DNA of 64,000 nucleotides from Arcicella aurantiaca. GTDB lineage: Bacteria; Bacteroidota; Bacteroidia; Cytophagales; Spirosomataceae. Location: the NCBI RefSeq assembly GCF_003148625.1, contig NZ_QGGO01000001.1, positions 1-64,000 of the forward strand, read 5' to 3'. Positions 27,425 through 33,711 of this stretch are shown here, piece after piece. The translations under genes were made by a program, and so were the position numbers. Under the pieces are notes generated by a model, which worked only from the letters and a program-made list of their open reading frames with translations, ran no database searches and was not told where the DNA came from. Within the stretch, counting starts at the first letter, position 1; each line of letters begins with the position of its first letter.

Positions 27425-28180
27425 ATGAATTTCCAAATCAGAAAGCAAAAAATACTTGAAAAATTAGAGCAAGATGCCATTCTTGATGTGAAAGAATTAG
27501 CAATTCTGCTCGAAACCTCCGAAATAACAGTTCGTCGAGATTTAGCAATTTTGGCTGAACAAGGTTTATTGGTGCGTACACACGGCGGAGCTATGAAAGT
27601 GAGTCTTTCGCAAATGCCTGTGAGTTTTGCTCAAAAATCGGCAATAAATGCAGAGCAAAAAGATGAAATTTGCAAAATAGCCGTTAGCCAAATTCAAGCA
27701 GGAGACGTGGTGTTTTTAGACTGTGGTAGCACCGTTTTTAGAATGTGTCCTTTTATTCGGAATATGAAAATAAAAGTGGTAACTAATTCATTACCAATAA
27801 TTAACGAGTTGGTTGGTTCGGAAGTGAGTTTGAATTTTGCGGGAGGAGAAATTGATTTTGAACGACAAGCGGCACACGGAAAAATCGCCATAGAACATTT
27901 TCAAAGATACCGAGCTGATAAAGCTTTTGTGGGCATTGATGGTATTTCACTGAAAAATGGATTGAGTGCTTCGAGCGAAAAAGAGGCAGAAATAACGATG
28001 GCTTTGGCTCAAAATGCTCGTGAAGTTTTCTTCCTTTGTGATTCGGGGAAGTTAGAAAAAGACCGATATTTACCTTTTGCTCCGATTAACTTTGTCCAAA
28101 ATCTCATTACCGATTCTTCGGTTTCGCAGGAATTATTGGCAGAATATAAAAAGGCAGGTATTAATGCTTTGAAAAGTTAA
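27425..28180 (+). CDS. DeoR/GlpR-family transcriptional regulator
   Basis: 251 residues. The N-terminal winged HTH (RKQKILEKLEQDAILDVKELA, SEITVRRDLAILAEQGLLVRTHGGAM) contains the DeoR signature. The C-terminal DeoRC sugar-phosphate sensor (residues 75-240) includes VFLDCGSTVFRM, KVVTNSLPIINEL, DKAFVGIDGIS and EVFFLCDSGKLEK. Such proteins respond to phosphorylated sugars. Its divergent neighbour nudK is a candidate target. No sugar operon is adjacent. Confidence 0.92.
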   Translation: MNFQIRKQKILEKLEQDAILDVKELAILLETSEITVRRDLAILAEQGLLVRTHGGAMKVSLSQMPVSFAQKSAINAEQKDEICKIAVSQIQAGDVVFLDCGSTVFRMCPFIRNMKIKVVTNSLPIINELVGSEVSLNFAGGEIDFERQAAHGKIAIEHFQRYRADKAFVGIDGISLKNGLSASSEKEAEITMALAQNAREVFFLCDSGKLEKDRYLPFAPINFVQNLITDSSVSQELLAEYKKAGINALKS

Positions 28181-28198
28181 GGGTTATCTATGAAATTC

Positions 28199-28231
28199 AC
28201 CTTCCCGAAAGTTTGAAACTTTCGGGAAGGT
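28199..28231. repeat. 33-bp perfect palindrome
   Basis: ACCTTCCCGAAAGTTT (28199-28214) and its exact complement (28216-28231) are separated by one G. There is no T-run, so it is not a classical terminator, though it follows the DeoR-type gene. Confidence 0.75.
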
Positions 28232-28237
28232 CTCCTT

Positions 28238-28364
28238 AGTCGCTCGCCTCTGGCGAGTGACGACTATTATCAGGCTTCCAGCCATTTTGAATACAATGTT
28301 TAAATCGTAGATAGATAGGGCTGGAAGCCTATTAATAATAGTAACTCGCCAGAGGCGAGCGACT
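28238..28364. mobile_element. MITE- or REP-doublet-like element
   Basis: A 127-bp element. The outer 21-bp arms, starting AGTCGCTCGCCTCTGGCGAG (28238-28258), are repeated perfectly in inverse at 28344-28364. Each arm contains its own palindrome CTCGCC-TCT-GGCGAG. Inner arms around AGGCTTCCAGCC (28272-28283) and GGCTGGAAGCCT (28319-28330) also pair, so the whole element can form one long hairpin. No target duplication is evident. Confidence 0.75.
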
Positions 28365-28425
28365 GTTATTATTTGTTTAGACTATTGTATTGGTGTTTTC
28401 GCTTACTATATAAATTAAAAAAATA

Positions 28426-31400
28426 ATGCAAACTTTCCTCGACCGTTCGGCACAATATATTTATTCACAACATTCTCATAATCAGCTTTCTAAAGTTTGT
28501 ATTGTTATTCCATCTCGTCGTGGAGTTTTATATTTCAAGCAAGCACTCGCACAACTTTCTGATGTTCCGTTTTTAGCTCCTGATGTTTTATCGGTAGATG
28601 ATTTTGTAATGCAAATGACGGGGCTTCGGCAGATTGACCAAGTGGCTTTGTTATTTGAATTGTACGATGTTTTTAAGGAAATTGACCCAAATGTGGCGTT
28701 TGAAAAATTCATGACTTGGGCAAGTACGCTCCTGAATGATTTTGATAAAATTGACCAATATTTAGTGGATGCCAAAGCATTGTTTAGCTATATGTCGGAA
28801 GCGAAGGCTTTAGAACGTTGGCAAATGCAATTGGGTGAATCTCAGAAAGATAAGAATCTAAAAACCGACCGAACCGACCGATATTTTAAATTATTCGAGA
28901 ATATTTTTAGTGTTTATCAAAACTTGCGAAACCGTTTATCTGAACAAGGTTTGGTTTACCGAGGCATGGCTTATCGTGATTTAGCCGAAAACGTTGATAA
29001 ATATATTCTTGAAAAAGACAAGCACCTTAAATATTATTTTGTTGGATTTAACGCCCTCAGTGATGCCGAAGAACGCATTATTAGAACTTTGTTAAAACGT
29101 AGAGATTTTGCCGAAACACTTTGGGATACAGATACTTACATCCTGAAAAATAAAGACCAAAAAGCGGGTGCTTGGTTGCGTTATTATAAAGAAGGAGATG
29201 ATAAAAATGGGATTCCGCCACTTTATAACAAAGAATGGCTTTGGGAAACGGATGAGTTAGTAAAAGGAACGAAAAATATCCAAGTAATTGGCGTTTCTAA
29301 TGCCAGTATTCAAGCAAAAGTGGCAGGGCATATTTATCGAAGTTGGAACGCTGAGAAAGAGGAAGGAGAAAAGGTGAAAGAGGAAAATGCTCAGACGGCT
29401 ATTGTTTTGGGAGATGAAAACTTGCTTGTCCCTGTCATGAATTCATTGGATGAATCGGTGAAGGATTTTAATATTACAATGGGTTTATCGTTGAAAAATT
29501 CCATGCTTTTCACCTTGATTGATTCACTTTTTGAGTTACAACGTAATTTAGTAGAATTCAAAACTGAAGATGGTGGAACGGTAAGAATCCCAAAATTCTC
29601 TCATCGGCAGGTTGTTAAAGTTTTAAATCATCCGTTTTTGAGGCGTTGGGAGTTGATGAAGTATAGTGATAAACCTCACCCGAAGCGTCGGTCGCCCCAG
29701 CCCCTCTCCGATGGAGAGGGGGGCATTCGACCTAACCAATTTGCGGACGAAAACTCCCCTCTCCATCGGAGAGGGGTTGGGGCGACCGACGCTTCGGGTG
29801 AGGTTTTAGAACATAAATTCTACCAAAAATCTGGATATGAGGAGTGGAAATATTTAAAACAATTTGCCAGAGATAATCGTAAAAACCCTACCGAATCAGA
29901 AGAAATACTTTGGGAAAAACTCAGAAATAAACAATTGGGTGATTTCAGAGTAAGAAGACAGCATTCTATAAATTCATTTATAGTTGATTTTGTATTTTTA
30001 AAACAAAACCTAATCATCGAACTCGACGGAGGAATTCACGAAGTTGATGATAATCCTAAATACGATGAATATCGAACTCAAGAGCTTAATGCAGAGGGTT
30101 TTAGAGTGTTAAGATTTAAGAATGAAGAAGTTTTAGAAAATGTAGATGAGGTTCTTAAAACGATTTTATACTATTTGAATAACATAACCAAACAATCAGG
30201 TATCGAAGTGTCGGACGAAAACTCCCCTCTCAGCAGGAGAGGGGTTGGGGCGACCGACGCTTCGGGTGAGGTAAATACTGAGGCCCTAAACCCAATCCGC
30301 AAAACACTCCGAGAAATCACTGAACGAAATCGAGTTTTTCTTAGCTCAAAAGAACTTTTAGAAATTGCTGAAAATGACTCGCTTTTTGAAGTGATTTTTA
30401 AACATTGGAATAACAATCCTCAAAATGCTATTAAGTGTTTTTATGCTCTAATTGACTTACTGAGAGATGTTTACAAGGAATCACAAGATGCCGTTGAAAC
30501 GGAATATCTGTATCAGTTTTATCTGATTTTGCAGAGAATGGAAGGTATTTTAGAGGCTCGAAAAGACACCGTAACCATGCGGAGTTTCAAGACTTTTTTG
30601 TTTGAGTTTATCAAGCAAACTAAAATTCCGTTTGAGTCAGAAACCGATGAAAGTTTGCAGATAATGGGGATGTTGGAAACCCGAACGTTGGATTTTGAAA
30701 AGGTAATAATTCTTTCGGTAAACGAAGGAACTTTACCGCAAGGAAAGCGACAAAACACTTTGATTCCATTTGATGCTTTGAGCGACCCGCAGTTCAATTT
30801 ACCAACCCATAATCATGCGGATTCGGTAATGGCGTATCACTTTTTTAGGCTTTTACAACGTGCCAAAGAAATTGTTTTGGTTCATGTTTTACCTTCTGAT
30901 ACGTATGGAGCAGGCGAAAAAAGTCGTTTCCTTTTACAAATTGAGCATGAATTAGCCAAATTCAATAAAAATATAACGCTCTCATACCCAACGGTCAAAT
31001 TTATTGCGGGCGATGAAGAACGGGAAGAAGAAACCAAATTAGAAATTCAGAAAACAGATGATATTTTAGCATTCATTGAAAAGGAAATTACCGAAAAAGG
31101 CATTTATCCTTCGCACATGAATCAGTATTTAGATTGTTCACTGAAATATTATTTTAGCAAGATTGCGGGCATTGCTGAGGAAGAAACCGTGGAGGAAAAA
31201 ATAGGAGTGGATACCTTCGGAAATTGGATTCATAAAACCTTTGAAAACATTGATTCTGAATTTGTTGCCAATGGTGGAGTCGTAGAAAAAGAGGATTTAG
31301 AAACGGTCTTGAAAAATATTCAATCTTATCTAAAACAGGCTTTTAAAGAAACCAATCAAGGGTTAAGAGCAGAAGAAGGAATGAACTATATTTTGTATCA

Positions 31401-32013
31401 AGTTGGAGAAACGATTGTAAAGAAGTTCTTGCGTTATCAGCTTGATAATGAATTATTTCCGTTAGAATTATTAGATGTTGAAAAGACTTTGAAAGTGCAA
31501 TTTGTAGCTCAGGTGAATAATAAAACTTTGCCTGTAAAAATTGCAGGTCGTATCGACCGAATGGACAGAGCAGGTGGCAATAAGATTCGTGTAATCGACT
31601 ATAAAACGGGAAAAGTTGAAGCTAAAGATTTGAAAATCAATATAGAAGATTTGGCTGAAAACCTTTTGATAGACAAAGAAAAGGATAAATTTCGACAATT
31701 GTGGTTGTACAAATACATGGTTTTGAAGCAGATGACTTCAAAAAATGGGTTAACAATTAATGGTATAAAATTGAATGAAGTTGAAAATGAAGTAAGCTCA
31801 GGAATTTACTCTTTCCGAAATATTGAAGCAGGACTTTTACAGCAAAGTATTGAGTTTCAAGAAGGTGAAACAATCCAAGATTTTATTTTTGAATCTGAGA
31901 AGTATCTACAAAATTTCGTTAGTGATTTGTTAGACCCCGAAAAACCATTTGAAAAGCGAAAAGACGTAGAAAATTGCGTTTATTGTGATTATCGACGGAT
32001 TTGTGGGAGGTGA
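28426..32013 (+). CDS. AddB-like PD-(D/E)XK nuclease/helicase with in-frame DUF559 insertion
   Basis: 1195 residues. Residues 1-415 and about 617-1195 together form an AddB-type protein of about 995 residues, a subunit of the AddAB double-strand-break resection enzyme. The N-terminus VCIVIPSRRGVLYFKQAL is AddB-like. The C-terminal nuclease shows GRIDRMD and VIDYKTGK (Asp1058, Lys1060). The iron-sulfur cysteines are Cys904, Cys1184, Cys1187 and Cys1193. Residues about 416-616 are foreign: a palindromic, Pro/Arg/Gly-rich peptide, a DUF559 nuclease-like domain (about 465-585) and a repeat of the peptide. The frame is open throughout, so the host protein may still be made. No addA lies in the window. 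Confidence 0.8.
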   Translation: MQTFLDRSAQYIYSQHSHNQLSKVCIVIPSRRGVLYFKQALAQLSDVPFLAPDVLSVDDFVMQMTGLRQIDQVALLFELYDVFKEIDPNVAFEKFMTWASTLLNDFDKIDQYLVDAKALFSYMSEAKALERWQMQLGESQKDKNLKTDRTDRYFKLFENIFSVYQNLRNRLSEQGLVYRGMAYRDLAENVDKYILEKDKHLKYYFVGFNALSDAEERIIRTLLKRRDFAETLWDTDTYILKNKDQKAGAWLRYYKEGDDKNGIPPLYNKEWLWETDELVKGTKNIQVIGVSNASIQAKVAGHIYRSWNAEKEEGEKVKEENAQTAIVLGDENLLVPVMNSLDESVKDFNITMGLSLKNSMLFTLIDSLFELQRNLVEFKTEDGGTVRIPKFSHRQVVKVLNHPFLRRWELMKYSDKPHPKRRSPQPLSDGEGGIRPNQFADENSPLHRRGVGATDASGEVLEHKFYQKSGYEEWKYLKQFARDNRKNPTESEEILWEKLRNKQLGDFRVRRQHSINSFIVDFVFLKQNLIIELDGGIHEVDDNPKYDEYRTQELNAEGFRVLRFKNEEVLENVDEVLKTILYYLNNITKQSGIEVSDENSPLSRRGVGATDASGEVNTEALNPIRKTLREITERNRVFLSSKELLEIAENDSLFEVIFKHWNNNPQNAIKCFYALIDLLRDVYKESQDAVETEYLYQFYLILQRMEGILEARKDTVTMRSFKTFLFEFIKQTKIPFESETDESLQIMGMLETRTLDFEKVIILSVNEGTLPQGKRQNTLIPFDALSDPQFNLPTHNHADSVMAYHFFRLLQRAKEIVLVHVLPSDTYGAGEKSRFLLQIEHELAKFNKNITLSYPTVKFIAGDEEREEETKLEIQKTDDILAFIEKEITEKGIYPSHMNQYLDCSLKYYFSKIAGIAEEETVEEKIGVDTFGNWIHKTFENIDSEFVANGGVVEKEDLETVLKNIQSYLKQAFKETNQGLRAEEGMNYILYQVGETIVKKFLRYQLDNELFPLELLDVEKTLKVQFVAQVNNKTLPVKIAGRIDRMDRAGGNKIRVIDYKTGKVEAKDLKINIEDLAENLLIDKEKDKFRQLWLYKYMVLKQMTSKNGLTINGIKLNEVENEVSSGIYSFRNIEAGLLQQSIEFQEGETIQDFIFESEKYLQNFVSDLLDPEKPFEKRKDVENCVYCDYRRICGR
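29671..30272 (+). mobile_element. Palindromic element encoding a DUF559 (Vsr-like) nuclease, inserted in frame in addB
   Basis: About 600 bp. Its left side is a huge inverted repeat: 51-bp arms at 29671-29721 and 29756-29806 with one mismatch, each holding CCCCTCTCC-GAT-GGAGAGGGG. A coding region for a DUF559 domain follows (EEWKYLKQFARDNRKNP, EEILWEKLRNKQL, FRVRRQHSINSFIVDF, LIIELDGGIHE, FRVLRFKNEEV), a PD-(D/E)XK-like fold with Asp and ExD residues in place. A second copy of the right-hand 61 bp (29744-29804) recurs directly at 30212-30272 and gives peptides SPLHRRGVGATDASGEV and SPLSRRGVGATDASGEV. All parts stay in the addB frame. Confidence 0.85.
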
Positions 32014-32045
32014 TTTGTAAGTAAATTAAAATGTGAATATATTTA

Positions 32046-33080
32046 ATGATGATATTAAAAACCACCTTTACTGATTTATCTGATTGGATTCCAAAAGAAT
32101 GGGAACGTCCACAAAAAGGGTCAAGTTCCATTACGATTTTTGAACAGCCAGAAACCTCAGAAGTTTATTTTTTTAAAGAATCTCATACACGCTACGAACT
32201 TGAATTTTGGTCAGAAATTATTTCCAGTAAATTTGGTCAAATGCTCGGATTGAATGTTTTGGATTATAATATAGGCTACTACAAAGGCAATTTAGGCTGT
32301 CTATCCAAAAGAATGGTTAATCCTGACGAAGGACAGGTACTTTATCATGGAGTTGAAATTCTTAATGACCATATAGAAACATTTATAATGTCTGATAAAC
32401 CATTTTTTAGTTATCAAGATATTGAAGAACTTTGCAAAAAAGATGATTTTAACCATTTATTGACTCATTTCCATGAATTAATAATTTTTGATGCTCTAAT
32501 TGGTAACACTGATAGACATACCGAAAATTGGGCTTTTATTAGAAATTTCTCAGCAAAAATAGATTTACCAAAACTTAATCCCAATAGCAATCCAACGCTA
32601 TTCAAGTTAATTTTCCATTTTTTATTAAACAGAAAAAAATATAGCAATTATTTTCAAAATAATGATTCAAAACTGAAACTTTCAATAAGCACAACCCACA
32701 TATCTTCTTCTATCTATGATAGTGGTTGCTGTTTGGGAAGAGAAATTGAAGAAATCAAGATTCAAGATTTTATAAAGGATAAAAAAAGAATTGAAAGTTA
32801 TACAGAAAAAGGTAAAAGTGAAATTAGGTGGAATAAAGACAGAATTGGTCTTTTTGAAATAGTTAGACAGATTCACGATACGGATAATCAATCGCTTAAA
32901 TCTATTTTCAACCAATTAAAAATAGATAATTTGCACGATTCTATCAAATCCATTGTTACTCAAATAGACGAACAAATACCTTTAGAAATTCAGAAATCAA
33001 GGCTAACTTTGCATCGCAAACATTTTATAACAGAATTATTGATTTTCAGATTTCAAAAACTTAAAAATATACTTGATTAG
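32046..33080 (+). CDS. HipA-like protein kinase
   Basis: 344 residues. It matches the HipA C-terminal kinase fold without the HipA N-subdomain. Lys44 (FFKES) is the likely ATP lysine. The segment SEIISSKFGQMLGLNVLDY follows. The catalytic loop is GNTDRHTENW (Asp156, Asn161) and the metal Asp lies in IYDSGCCLGRE (Asp225). All key residues for phosphotransfer appear present. It overlaps the HIRAN gene by eight bases. No HipB-like HTH gene is beside it, so it differs from classical hipBA. It starts 32 bases after addB. Confidence 0.75.
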   Translation: MMILKTTFTDLSDWIPKEWERPQKGSSSITIFEQPETSEVYFFKESHTRYELEFWSEIISSKFGQMLGLNVLDYNIGYYKGNLGCLSKRMVNPDEGQVLYHGVEILNDHIETFIMSDKPFFSYQDIEELCKKDDFNHLLTHFHELIIFDALIGNTDRHTENWAFIRNFSAKIDLPKLNPNSNPTLFKLIFHFLLNRKKYSNYFQNNDSKLKLSISTTHISSSIYDSGCCLGREIEEIKIQDFIKDKKRIESYTEKGKSEIRWNKDRIGLFEIVRQIHDTDNQSLKSIFNQLKIDNLHDSIKSIVTQIDEQIPLEIQKSRLTLHRKHFITELLIFRFQKLKNILD

Positions 33081-33711
33081 GGTCATTTACATATCTTGGA
33101 GAAAACAAGCGGGTAGTCGCAGACACATCGTTGCTAAAATGAAACGTAATGCATCGGGAGTAATATTTCAATCTTTCCCCAAAGCATTAGAAAAAGCAAA
33201 AGCTGATGGATTAGACTATTTAGCAGGTTTTCATGATTTGGAAAAGGTTACAAATAAAGATGTTACTCAGTTGATTAATCACAGAGTCATTGGAAAAGAC
33301 AGACCTGATAGGCAACATTTTTTATCTTTTTGGGAAGCTGAAAAAGCTGTTGATAATTTTGAAATTTTAGCACTAACACAAGGTAGTTCACCAACCGATA
33401 ATCTCGAATTCTTAGGGGAATATCATCCACAAAAGGGAATGAAGTTTGTTACAGACCTTGCTGGATTAAGTCATATTGAATTACCAAAAGATTTTTTTAA
33501 AATTGGAGATAAACTTACTTATAAAATTGAAAAGGATAATCCAATTGATAAAAAAGCAGTAGCCGTTTATAAAGACAGGACAAAAGTGGGTTATATAAAA
33601 CAAATTCACAGTCGTTTTTTTCAAGATTTAAAATACCCCGTATCCTTAACTGTAAAAGCATTAGACCAAAATGGACGCATCAAGAATGTATTTATATTAG
33701 TTGAGCTTTGA
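33073..33711 (+). CDS. HIRAN-domain protein paired with the HipA-like kinase
   Basis: 212 residues from a TTG at 33073, overlapping the kinase stop; an internal ATG at 33139 would remove a conserved-looking start (VIYISWRKQAGSRRHIVAKM). Residues 1-100 resemble the N-terminal region seen with some stand-alone HIRAN proteins and recall the small HipA N-subdomain. Residues about 105-212 fit HIRAN (FLGEYHPQKGMKFVTDLAG, NPIDKKAVAVYKDRTKVGYIKQIHSRF), a domain that in HLTF-type proteins binds DNA 3' ends. The overlap implies translational coupling with the kinase, and I infer a partner or antidote role. Confidence 0.65.
   Translation: MIRVIYISWRKQAGSRRHIVAKMKRNASGVIFQSFPKALEKAKADGLDYLAGFHDLEKVTNKDVTQLINHRVIGKDRPDRQHFLSFWEAEKAVDNFEILALTQGSSPTDNLEFLGEYHPQKGMKFVTDLAGLSHIELPKDFFKIGDKLTYKIEKDNPIDKKAVAVYKDRTKVGYIKQIHSRFFQDLKYPVSLTVKALDQNGRIKNVFILVEL

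Follow-up and report, generated by a model that had tools for sequence, protein, structure and literature searches.

We found that an addB-like gene (28426-32013, plus strand) in a 64,000-nucleotide stretch of the Arcicella aurantiaca genome (contig NZ_QGGO01000001.1, positions 1 to 64,000; hereafter the window) carries in its own reading frame an insert of about 600 bp, in which a compact, putative EDxHD/Vsr-like nuclease of the DUF559 family lies between palindromic arms without a stop codon in the frame used. The insert is likely to be a homing cassette that stays in the host frame and does not splice, and whose nuclease would cleave and home. It can be seen as a variation on homing genes, and it could well prove to be a class apart.

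An in-frame nuclease cassette inside addB

The addB-like gene, an open reading frame of 1195 aa, stayed open across the roughly 600 foreign bases, its frame unbroken. The stretch at 29665-30288 (plus strand) replaces a short variable host linker between ...RRWELMKY and NPIRKTL..., which by eye is 5-9 aa long in six relatives with an empty site. Within it, the left arm of a palindrome, CCTCACCC...CCCCTCTCC-GGAGAGGGG (29671-29732, plus strand), is followed by a right arm (29745-29806, minus strand); these 62-nt arms are 92% complementary, and their core inverted arms (29671-29721 and 29756-29806) span 51 nt with 1 mismatch. A third arm copy (30212-30272, minus strand) is a direct repeat of the right arm with 4 mismatches in 61 nt. 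It is offset by 468 nt, which equals 156 codons, and the repeat can be followed over 72 nt at 88% identity (29733-29804 versus 30201-30272). The DUF559 / EDxHD-Vsr-like nuclease domain at 29851-30177 (plus strand) corresponds to AddB aa 476-584, where Pfam matched DUF559 (PF04480; E 1.2e-33 for the whole protein), and it holds D521, E532, D534 and H538. An earlier note on this DNA, made from the letters alone, had described the open gene, the inverted repeat with 51-nt arms, the direct third copy of 61 bp and a DUF559/Vsr-like nuclease with its acidic residues, and all of these were borne out.

No NCBIfam AddB model reached its cut-off with the window protein. Foldseek of the AlphaFold model of the whole protein gave AddB of Bacillus AddAB as the top match (4cei_B, E 1.5e-19), and because the Bacillus AddB chains come first, we consider the name addB to be right. 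Pfam also identified a PD-(D/E)XK domain (PF12705) at aa 895-1193. The mean predicted local distance difference test score (pLDDT) of the AddB model was 73.5, with values below 50 at aa 416-480 and 587-618, the arm-encoded peptides included, and the nuclease core was modelled as strands and helices of mixed confidence. The low pLDDT around the nuclease suggests that the arms would act as flexible linkers that tether the nuclease domain. AddB aa 416-500 hold no in-frame ATG, GTG or TTG, which makes a separate start of the nuclease unlikely in addB. Among 58 interior inserts, the region from -60 to +12 aa held no ATG in 20 and no start-type codon of any kind in 5; a free nuclease may arise from an internal start in inserts other than that of the window addB.

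We then compared the site among relatives. The N-terminal 415 aa of AddB matched in 51 of the 59 genomes searched (its own included), and the single match in the A. aurantiaca genome was the addB at 28426-32013. Six of the seven other genomes of the same genus (G001-G005 and G007) were empty at this site, and the seventh, G006, was filled with DUF559, so the segment is not a fixed part of AddB homologues. The site is empty even in the closest relative, G005, whose AddB shares 96% identity across its N-terminal 414 aa. A DUF559 insert was also found in the same AddB linker in G035, a genome of another genus. Because G006 and G035 carry DUF559 at this same place, an assembly error at the junctions, which the earlier note had kept in view, is unlikely. 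Between the window and G006, DUF559 is 69% and the host 87% identical.

The nuclease resembles a homing endonuclease

A profile of 44 domains matched 3hrl (E 6.5e-35) and the homing endonuclease I-Bth0305I (3r3p, E 4.9e-7). Similarly, for a model of the nuclease by itself, built with 44 aligned sequences (mean pLDDT 88.6), Foldseek placed 3hrl and I-Bth0305I first (E 8.5e-6 for the latter), with Vsr far lower. Among solved structures whose role is known, the nearest is I-Bth0305I, an EDxHD homing endonuclease. Its catalytic domain is homologous by profile and by fold, the active-site residues are kept here, and in both systems a given point of orthologous genes is patchily occupied. However, I-Bth0305I belongs to a mobile intron, whereas the DUF559 cassette lies in the coding frame, has palindromic arms and shows no splicing element. 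The same domain is present in NGO0050 (3hrl), VsrA of Caulobacter and the PRK09767 family, which are described as separate proteins and not as inserts. The PRK09767 model, which we take to be that of E. coli YcjD, was matched below its cut-off. The Caulobacter protein carries DUF559 and has been studied as VsrA (PMC12907096).

The four residues D521, E532, D534 and H538 (AddB numbering) were kept in 66 of 72 in-frame or fused domains, and in 29, 29, 28 and 29, respectively, of the 29 free ones. The remaining six form one leuS clade of the Tenacibaculum/Polaribacter type, in which D534 is replaced by S and H538 is missing. Intein nucleases decay after fixation, and the loss in this one clade is what would be expected of a nuclease decaying once its insert is fixed; the LeuRS insert of this type is probably a dead or re-used nuclease. 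The decayed LeuRS inserts are L056, L057, L060, L062, L064 and L065, from Tenacibaculum, Polaribacter and their kin.

Recurrent insertion into housekeeping and restriction genes

The earlier note had regarded a selfish nuclease inside a repair gene as a peculiarity; addB turned out to be one of many hosts. Fifteen of 17 named relatives of the nuclease were from Bacteroidota, and on this ground we take the phylum surveyed below to be Bacteroidota. Among the 59 genomes near the window (its own included), 25 had DUF559, and 16 of the 36 listed matches lay in frames of at least 600 aa. Across 392 genomes of the phylum, 222 had a DUF559 match, and 40 of the 150 matches listed (the best by E-value; more exist) lay in open frames of at least 600 aa. 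As a control, none of the 149 best listed Y1_Tnp matches lay in such frames (p 9e-14 versus DUF559). For a second control, GIY-YIG, no match among those listed lay in a frame longer than 293 aa, and a weaker in-frame GIY-YIG insert exists. Among plasmids, 36 records had a DUF559 match.

Sixty regions were fetched, holding 61 DUF559 matches, 52 in frames of at least 600 aa and nine in frames of 373-496 aa, and six named loci were added; a weak G040 match in a 1040-aa frame was left out, and all other listed frames of at least 600 aa were included. Host genes were grouped by BLAST and by eye, and representatives were checked with Pfam and NCBIfam. The hosts checked in this way were LeuRS, MetH, IleRS, RecG, MnmE, a methylmalonyl-CoA-mutase-like protein, UvrC, a UvrD-type helicase, HsdR, HsdM and an Eco57I-type enzyme; LeuRS, MetH, IleRS, RecG, MnmE and UvrC reached an NCBIfam cut-off for their respective families even with the insert present. 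AddA-like, icmF, hemF, hisF, hemD and other terminal fusions were named by eye only. The leuS gene holds inserts at two sites (leuS_A and leuS_B). In all nine leuS-insert genomes searched, the interrupted frame was the only strong match to the LeuRS editing domain; a second, weak LeuRS match (33-43 bits; another frame, 878-932 aa) was taken as another class I synthetase. Homing-type nucleases thus sit inside housekeeping enzymes, including the only strong LeuRS match of these genomes, with no splicing element found.

Inteins sit in conserved motifs of housekeeping proteins as well, which would fit a cryptic intein or intron that is removed from protein or RNA. A Thermosynechococcus study likewise links DUF559 to EDxHD homing endonucleases, its authors listing a DUF559 gene as an EDxHD homing family under inteins (PMC9403480). 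However, Pfam identified no intein or Hint domain in AddB (E up to 0.01) or in the eleven other host proteins scanned (E up to 1e-5 or 1e-4), namely LeuRS, MetH, IleRS, RecG, MnmE, the mutase-like protein, UvrC, the UvrD-like helicase, HsdR, HsdM and the Eco57I-type enzyme, and the insert junctions vary in residue and length. An Rfam scan of 27900-32400 found no intron, with only sub-threshold microRNA and small nucleolar RNA look-alikes on the hairpin. An intein was rejected for want of a splicing domain in the scanned host proteins, and a group I/II intron because 27900-32400 holds no Rfam ribozyme and the insert is open in the host frame. The earlier note had likewise seen neither an intein nor a group I intron, and removal in some cryptic form is most improbable.

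A different proposal is that DUF559 was gained under host selection as a useful extra nuclease domain for repair or restriction and is kept for that function. Many hosts do act on DNA (AddB, the UvrD-type helicase, RecG, UvrC, HsdR, HsdM and the Eco57I-type enzyme), and a DUF559-SPOUT methyltransferase fusion was noted in 2007 (PMC1829167). Moreover, the ratio of nonsynonymous to synonymous substitution rates (dN/dS) of DUF559 was 0.05-0.10 in the three of nine pairs with a finite estimate above zero (dS was infinite in five), indicating purifying selection; these figures are rough because dS exceeded 1.6 in each of the three. Such a gain would give no evident use for a DNase in LeuRS, IleRS, MetH, MnmE or the methylmalonyl-CoA-mutase-like protein, and it sits poorly with the long low-confidence stretches flanking the nuclease in the AddB model and with a patchy presence: of 61 genomes sampled from the genus of G344, 58 had a RecG match, and among these 3 carried the insert and 55 lacked it. 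We consider selection for a host function improbable.

Two host proteins showed further features. In G014, a single metH (L129) carries two different DUF559 inserts at two sites within one open frame of 1645 aa. In HsdR of L162 (G318), a GIY-YIG domain at aa ~230-345 is in frame in addition to the DUF559 insert, and it occupies the RFM(T/S)W point where L148 has DUF559, that is, a different homing-type nuclease at the same spot.

Nuclease lineages, insertion points and hosts

A tree was built from 108 columns of 101 DUF559 domains, 29 of them free and 72 in-frame or fused; many of its forks were unresolved, and it did not include the leuS loci L059, L061, L063 and L066-L068 or the weak matches L045 and L046. 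Host labels changed 33 times on this tree, against a mean of 68.2 after shuffling, and none of 200 shuffles gave so low a number. The addB nucleases formed one clade (SH-aLRT 100), the ten metH inserts, from families f1, f25, f35, f53 and f64, needed two changes, and the recG, mnmE, hemF and hsdM nucleases formed a single clade each. By eye, the insertion point was the same in 10/10 metH, 8/8 leuS_A and 5/5 leuS_B proteins, as well as in both proteins each of ileS, mnmE, icmF and hsdM.

Identities of the nuclease and of its host, the latter computed over whole proteins, disagreed in several pairs. The metH hosts of G014 and G013 are 89% identical and their DUF559 domains 70%, and against the distant G375 the host of G014 is 59% identical with DUF559 likewise at 70%. 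The mnmE pair gave 80% for the host and 55% for DUF559, leuS_A gave 79% and 57% for G159-G429 but 73% and 78% for G351-G087, and hsdR of G318-G168 gave 75% and 41%. For leuS_B of G136/G194 the values were 94% and 85%. The hsdR pair G071-G188 was not used, since its identities would compare different parts of the gene. To judge from these sequences, the discordant pairs (metH G013/G014, mnmE, leuS_A and hsdR) would weigh against pure descent.

A conversion-like tract was found in recG. Between G140 and G344, third-position mismatches were 2/129 in the insert and 126/690 in the flanks (p 2.4e-8), and identity dropped away on both sides of the insert. Nine empty recG sites read ...KLWKKN(D/E/V)(I/V)PPH..., and the empty site falls between two conserved helicase motifs.

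A dispersed palindrome family that goes with DUF559

Arm matches were found in at least 16 further places of the A. aurantiaca genome (40 of 82 candidates scored), which holds 45 CCCCTC/GAGGGG palindromes and one DUF559; the other arm copies are therefore solo. Recurrence of the arms, as raised in the earlier note, was thus confirmed, a constant pairing with DUF559 was not, and insertion in frame held for a part only: of 15 solo copies read, two (L006 and L018) lay inside long frames, three lay close to the beginning (about 30 codons or less) of a frame of at least 444 aa, and 10 lay in no frame longer than 145 aa. The matched stretches were 59-122 bp long, most with the ends AAACCTCACC...GGTGAGGTTT, and fourteen solo copies had on average 3.5 of six frames open, compared with 2.0 after single-base shuffling. 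L018 is a penicillin-amidase gene with an in-frame solo palindrome (G000). At the same place of this gene, different in-frame palindromes were present in G005 and G006, and G001, G002, G003 and G007 were empty (seven genomes were read; the eighth, G004, was left out). L006 (G000:C27:11931-11989) is a half palindrome in a 902-aa frame, by eye just after the apparent signal peptide of a TolC-like protein.

Repeats scoring at least 16 were found near 40 of 71 in-frame or fused DUF559 domains versus 2/140 control windows, and near 24 of 27 free DUF559 genes versus 1/48 control windows (L188, L034 and L120, with too little flank, were not scored). Similarly, of 95 DUF559 loci 44 had CCCTCTCC beside them, compared with 2 of 95 control flanks. 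We then counted the pattern CCCCTCN{2,14}GAGGGG across the 392 genomes, taking as DUF559-positive the 166 genomes with a match below 1e-15 (hand-picked from the list) and as negative the other 226. The median number of palindromes was 7.5 in the positive and 1 in the negative genomes (p 2.5e-25), all 21 genomes with at least 40 palindromes had DUF559, and none of 5000 within-family permutations reached the observed association. A reversed control pattern showed no clear difference across the 392 genomes (p 0.09).

Y1_Tnp had no effect on palindrome number in genomes without DUF559 (p 0.58) and a weaker added effect in those with it (p 0.004), whereas DUF559 had an effect in both Y1_Tnp strata (p 5.5e-10 and 2.7e-13) and, with family effects included, gave t 7.7 against 2.6 for Y1_Tnp. 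A tyrosine transposase associated with repetitive extragenic palindromes (RAYT) was rejected as the main palindrome partner, palindrome number following DUF559 with a weaker effect added by Y1_Tnp.

These counts, which hold whether or not Y1_Tnp is present, could also mean that DUF559 mainly moves or maintains palindromes resembling repetitive extragenic palindromes (REP) or miniature inverted-repeat transposable elements (MITE) by nicking hairpins, with the in-frame copies as by-products and no homing from allele to allele. The in-frame solo palindromes at one place of the penicillin-amidase gene (G000, G005 and G006), the repeats adjacent to most free DUF559 genes and the occurrence of one nuclease clade at two hsdR points agree with this explanation. 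It does not predict nuclease clades that share one insertion point across families, as in metH, or the conversion-like tract in recG, and in many in-frame copies the active site is intact although the arms have decayed. We regard it as possible but unlikely.

A proposed homing cycle

In the cycle that we propose, a cassette would first lie in frame in a linker or loop with the host frame open, as was observed. The host would be translated straight through, leaving the nuclease hanging on two flexible, arm-encoded linkers between the AddB domains. Next, as suggested by homology, the kept active site and the lineages, the nuclease would recognise the empty site of its own host gene and cut the uninterrupted allele when the two alleles meet by gene transfer. 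The break would then be repaired from the filled allele, copying the cassette together with some flanking DNA, for which the discordant pairs and the one tract speak. At each of several sites, among them addB, metH, recG, mnmE and hsdM, the nucleases belong to one lineage. Finally, as seen in the one leuS clade, the nuclease would decay after fixation while the insert stays. The scheme is weakest where the arms are concerned: they appear as linkers in the model and may perhaps provide homology or hairpins for reaching new genes. Because the directly repeated arms are spaced by 156 codons, the cassette could collapse in frame and leave a solo palindrome behind. The same arms exist solo and their number goes with DUF559, so the cassette is probably that member of the palindrome family which bears the nuclease; we infer that the nuclease moves the palindromes. 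The idea of the earlier note that a palindromic element carries a nuclease able to promote its own spread is therefore supported, with homing as the inferred part.

Several results weigh against such a homing cassette. The conversion-like tract was found in one of five profiled pairs (recG) and not in icmF, metH, leuS_B or hsdM, and no target-site duplication was seen by eye at addB or recG. Clustering of nucleases by host gene would also follow from vertical inheritance of an old insert: leuS_B of G136/G194 and hsdM fit vertical descent, most other metH pairs have DUF559 identities (51-75%) close to those of the host (56-78%) so that only G013/G014 stands out, and the greater divergence of DUF559 at addB could be explained by faster evolution. 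The leuS_B, TypeIIG and ileS nucleases were not clearly clustered, with 4, 4 and 2 changes, and 34, 26 and 500 of 500 label shuffles were as low. More than one insertion point or gene stands under each of the labels hsdR, TypeIIG, addA and otherRM; in addA, for example, L165 stands apart from L052 and L167 in insertion point. In hsdR, the nucleases of L148, L150, L152 and L162 belong to a single clade, yet L148 is inserted at another point than the other three; L176, in turn, shares the insertion point of L162 but has a DUF559 from a different clade. The tie between lineage and site is therefore not strict.

The arms bring further difficulties. They scored below the threshold in 31 of the 71 in-frame or fused cases, 60 of the 166 DUF559 genomes had fewer than 5 palindromes, and ten genomes had at least 15 palindromes with no strong DUF559 match; the bond between palindromes and DUF559 is therefore not absolute. 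Arm sequence followed nuclease lineage no more closely than control flanks did: the Mantel r of 0.14 was not equalled in any of 2000 permutations, but it does not count as support because control flanks correlated as strongly (rank correlation 0.10 versus 0.08). Cleavage, target site and transfer are themselves predictions.

Relation to known mobile elements

The DUF559 cassette shares with inteins a homing-type nuclease and an in-frame location, at points that recur, within housekeeping proteins; unlike them, it has no splicing domain, and its host seems to live with the insert permanently. Rickettsia palindromic elements (RPEs), to which the earlier note had likened the insert, are known as dispersed palindromes inserted in frame in protein genes, ~150 bp long and with no nuclease mentioned in the accessible part of the source (PMC10969869). 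The solo copies here are alike in being palindromic, dispersed and in frame in protein genes, and the likeness holds to that extent; however, the family described here carries DUF559 and belongs to another phylum, the comparison is one of descriptions only, and the closest analogue is a homing endonuclease of the I-Bth0305I family. In the REP/RAYT system (REPtron), too, palindromes are dispersed and their number follows an enzyme gene, but here the number goes with DUF559 and not mainly with Y1_Tnp. Compared with MITEs and composite transposons, inverted arms are present, and a target-site duplication was not seen by eye at addB or recG.

In the open-access (PMC) literature searched, subscription papers lying outside this scope, we found neither DUF559 cassettes in frame at recurrent sites nor the association of DUF559 with palindromes described. 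We give roughly even chances to the broader claim of a third homing-gene lifestyle inside essential protein genes, beside introns and inteins. It would work with no splicing, the palindromic arms serving as open, disordered linkers and the nuclease being permanently tethered; it would spread site by site through Bacteroidota (leuS, ileS, metH, recG, addB, mnmE, uvrC and restriction enzymes), with solo arms as non-autonomous partners. If true, this would be a new lifestyle for selfish nucleases, and it would provide natural examples of domain insertion at positions where a tethered nuclease of ~110 aa is tolerated. It would also give a partner gene to a palindrome family for which, within the same literature scope, no described partner was found.

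Neighbouring features and other observations

A second palindrome of other sequence lies just upstream of addB at 28238-28364; its 46-nt arms are 89% complementary and it contains GCTCGCCTCTGGCGAG and GGCTTCCAGCC parts. Directly after addB, two genes at 32046-33711 matched the PADLOC candidate defence families PDC-M03A and PDC-M03B. The PDC-M03B gene has a HIRAN domain, and the PDC-M03A gene had no Pfam match and is HipA-kinase-like by eye. Among the GIY-YIG controls, five matches of equal score lay exactly 450 bp apart at G292:C1:120132-122135, forming a tandem array of small nuclease genes, and three matches were spaced 317 bp at G188:C1:1733881-1734727.

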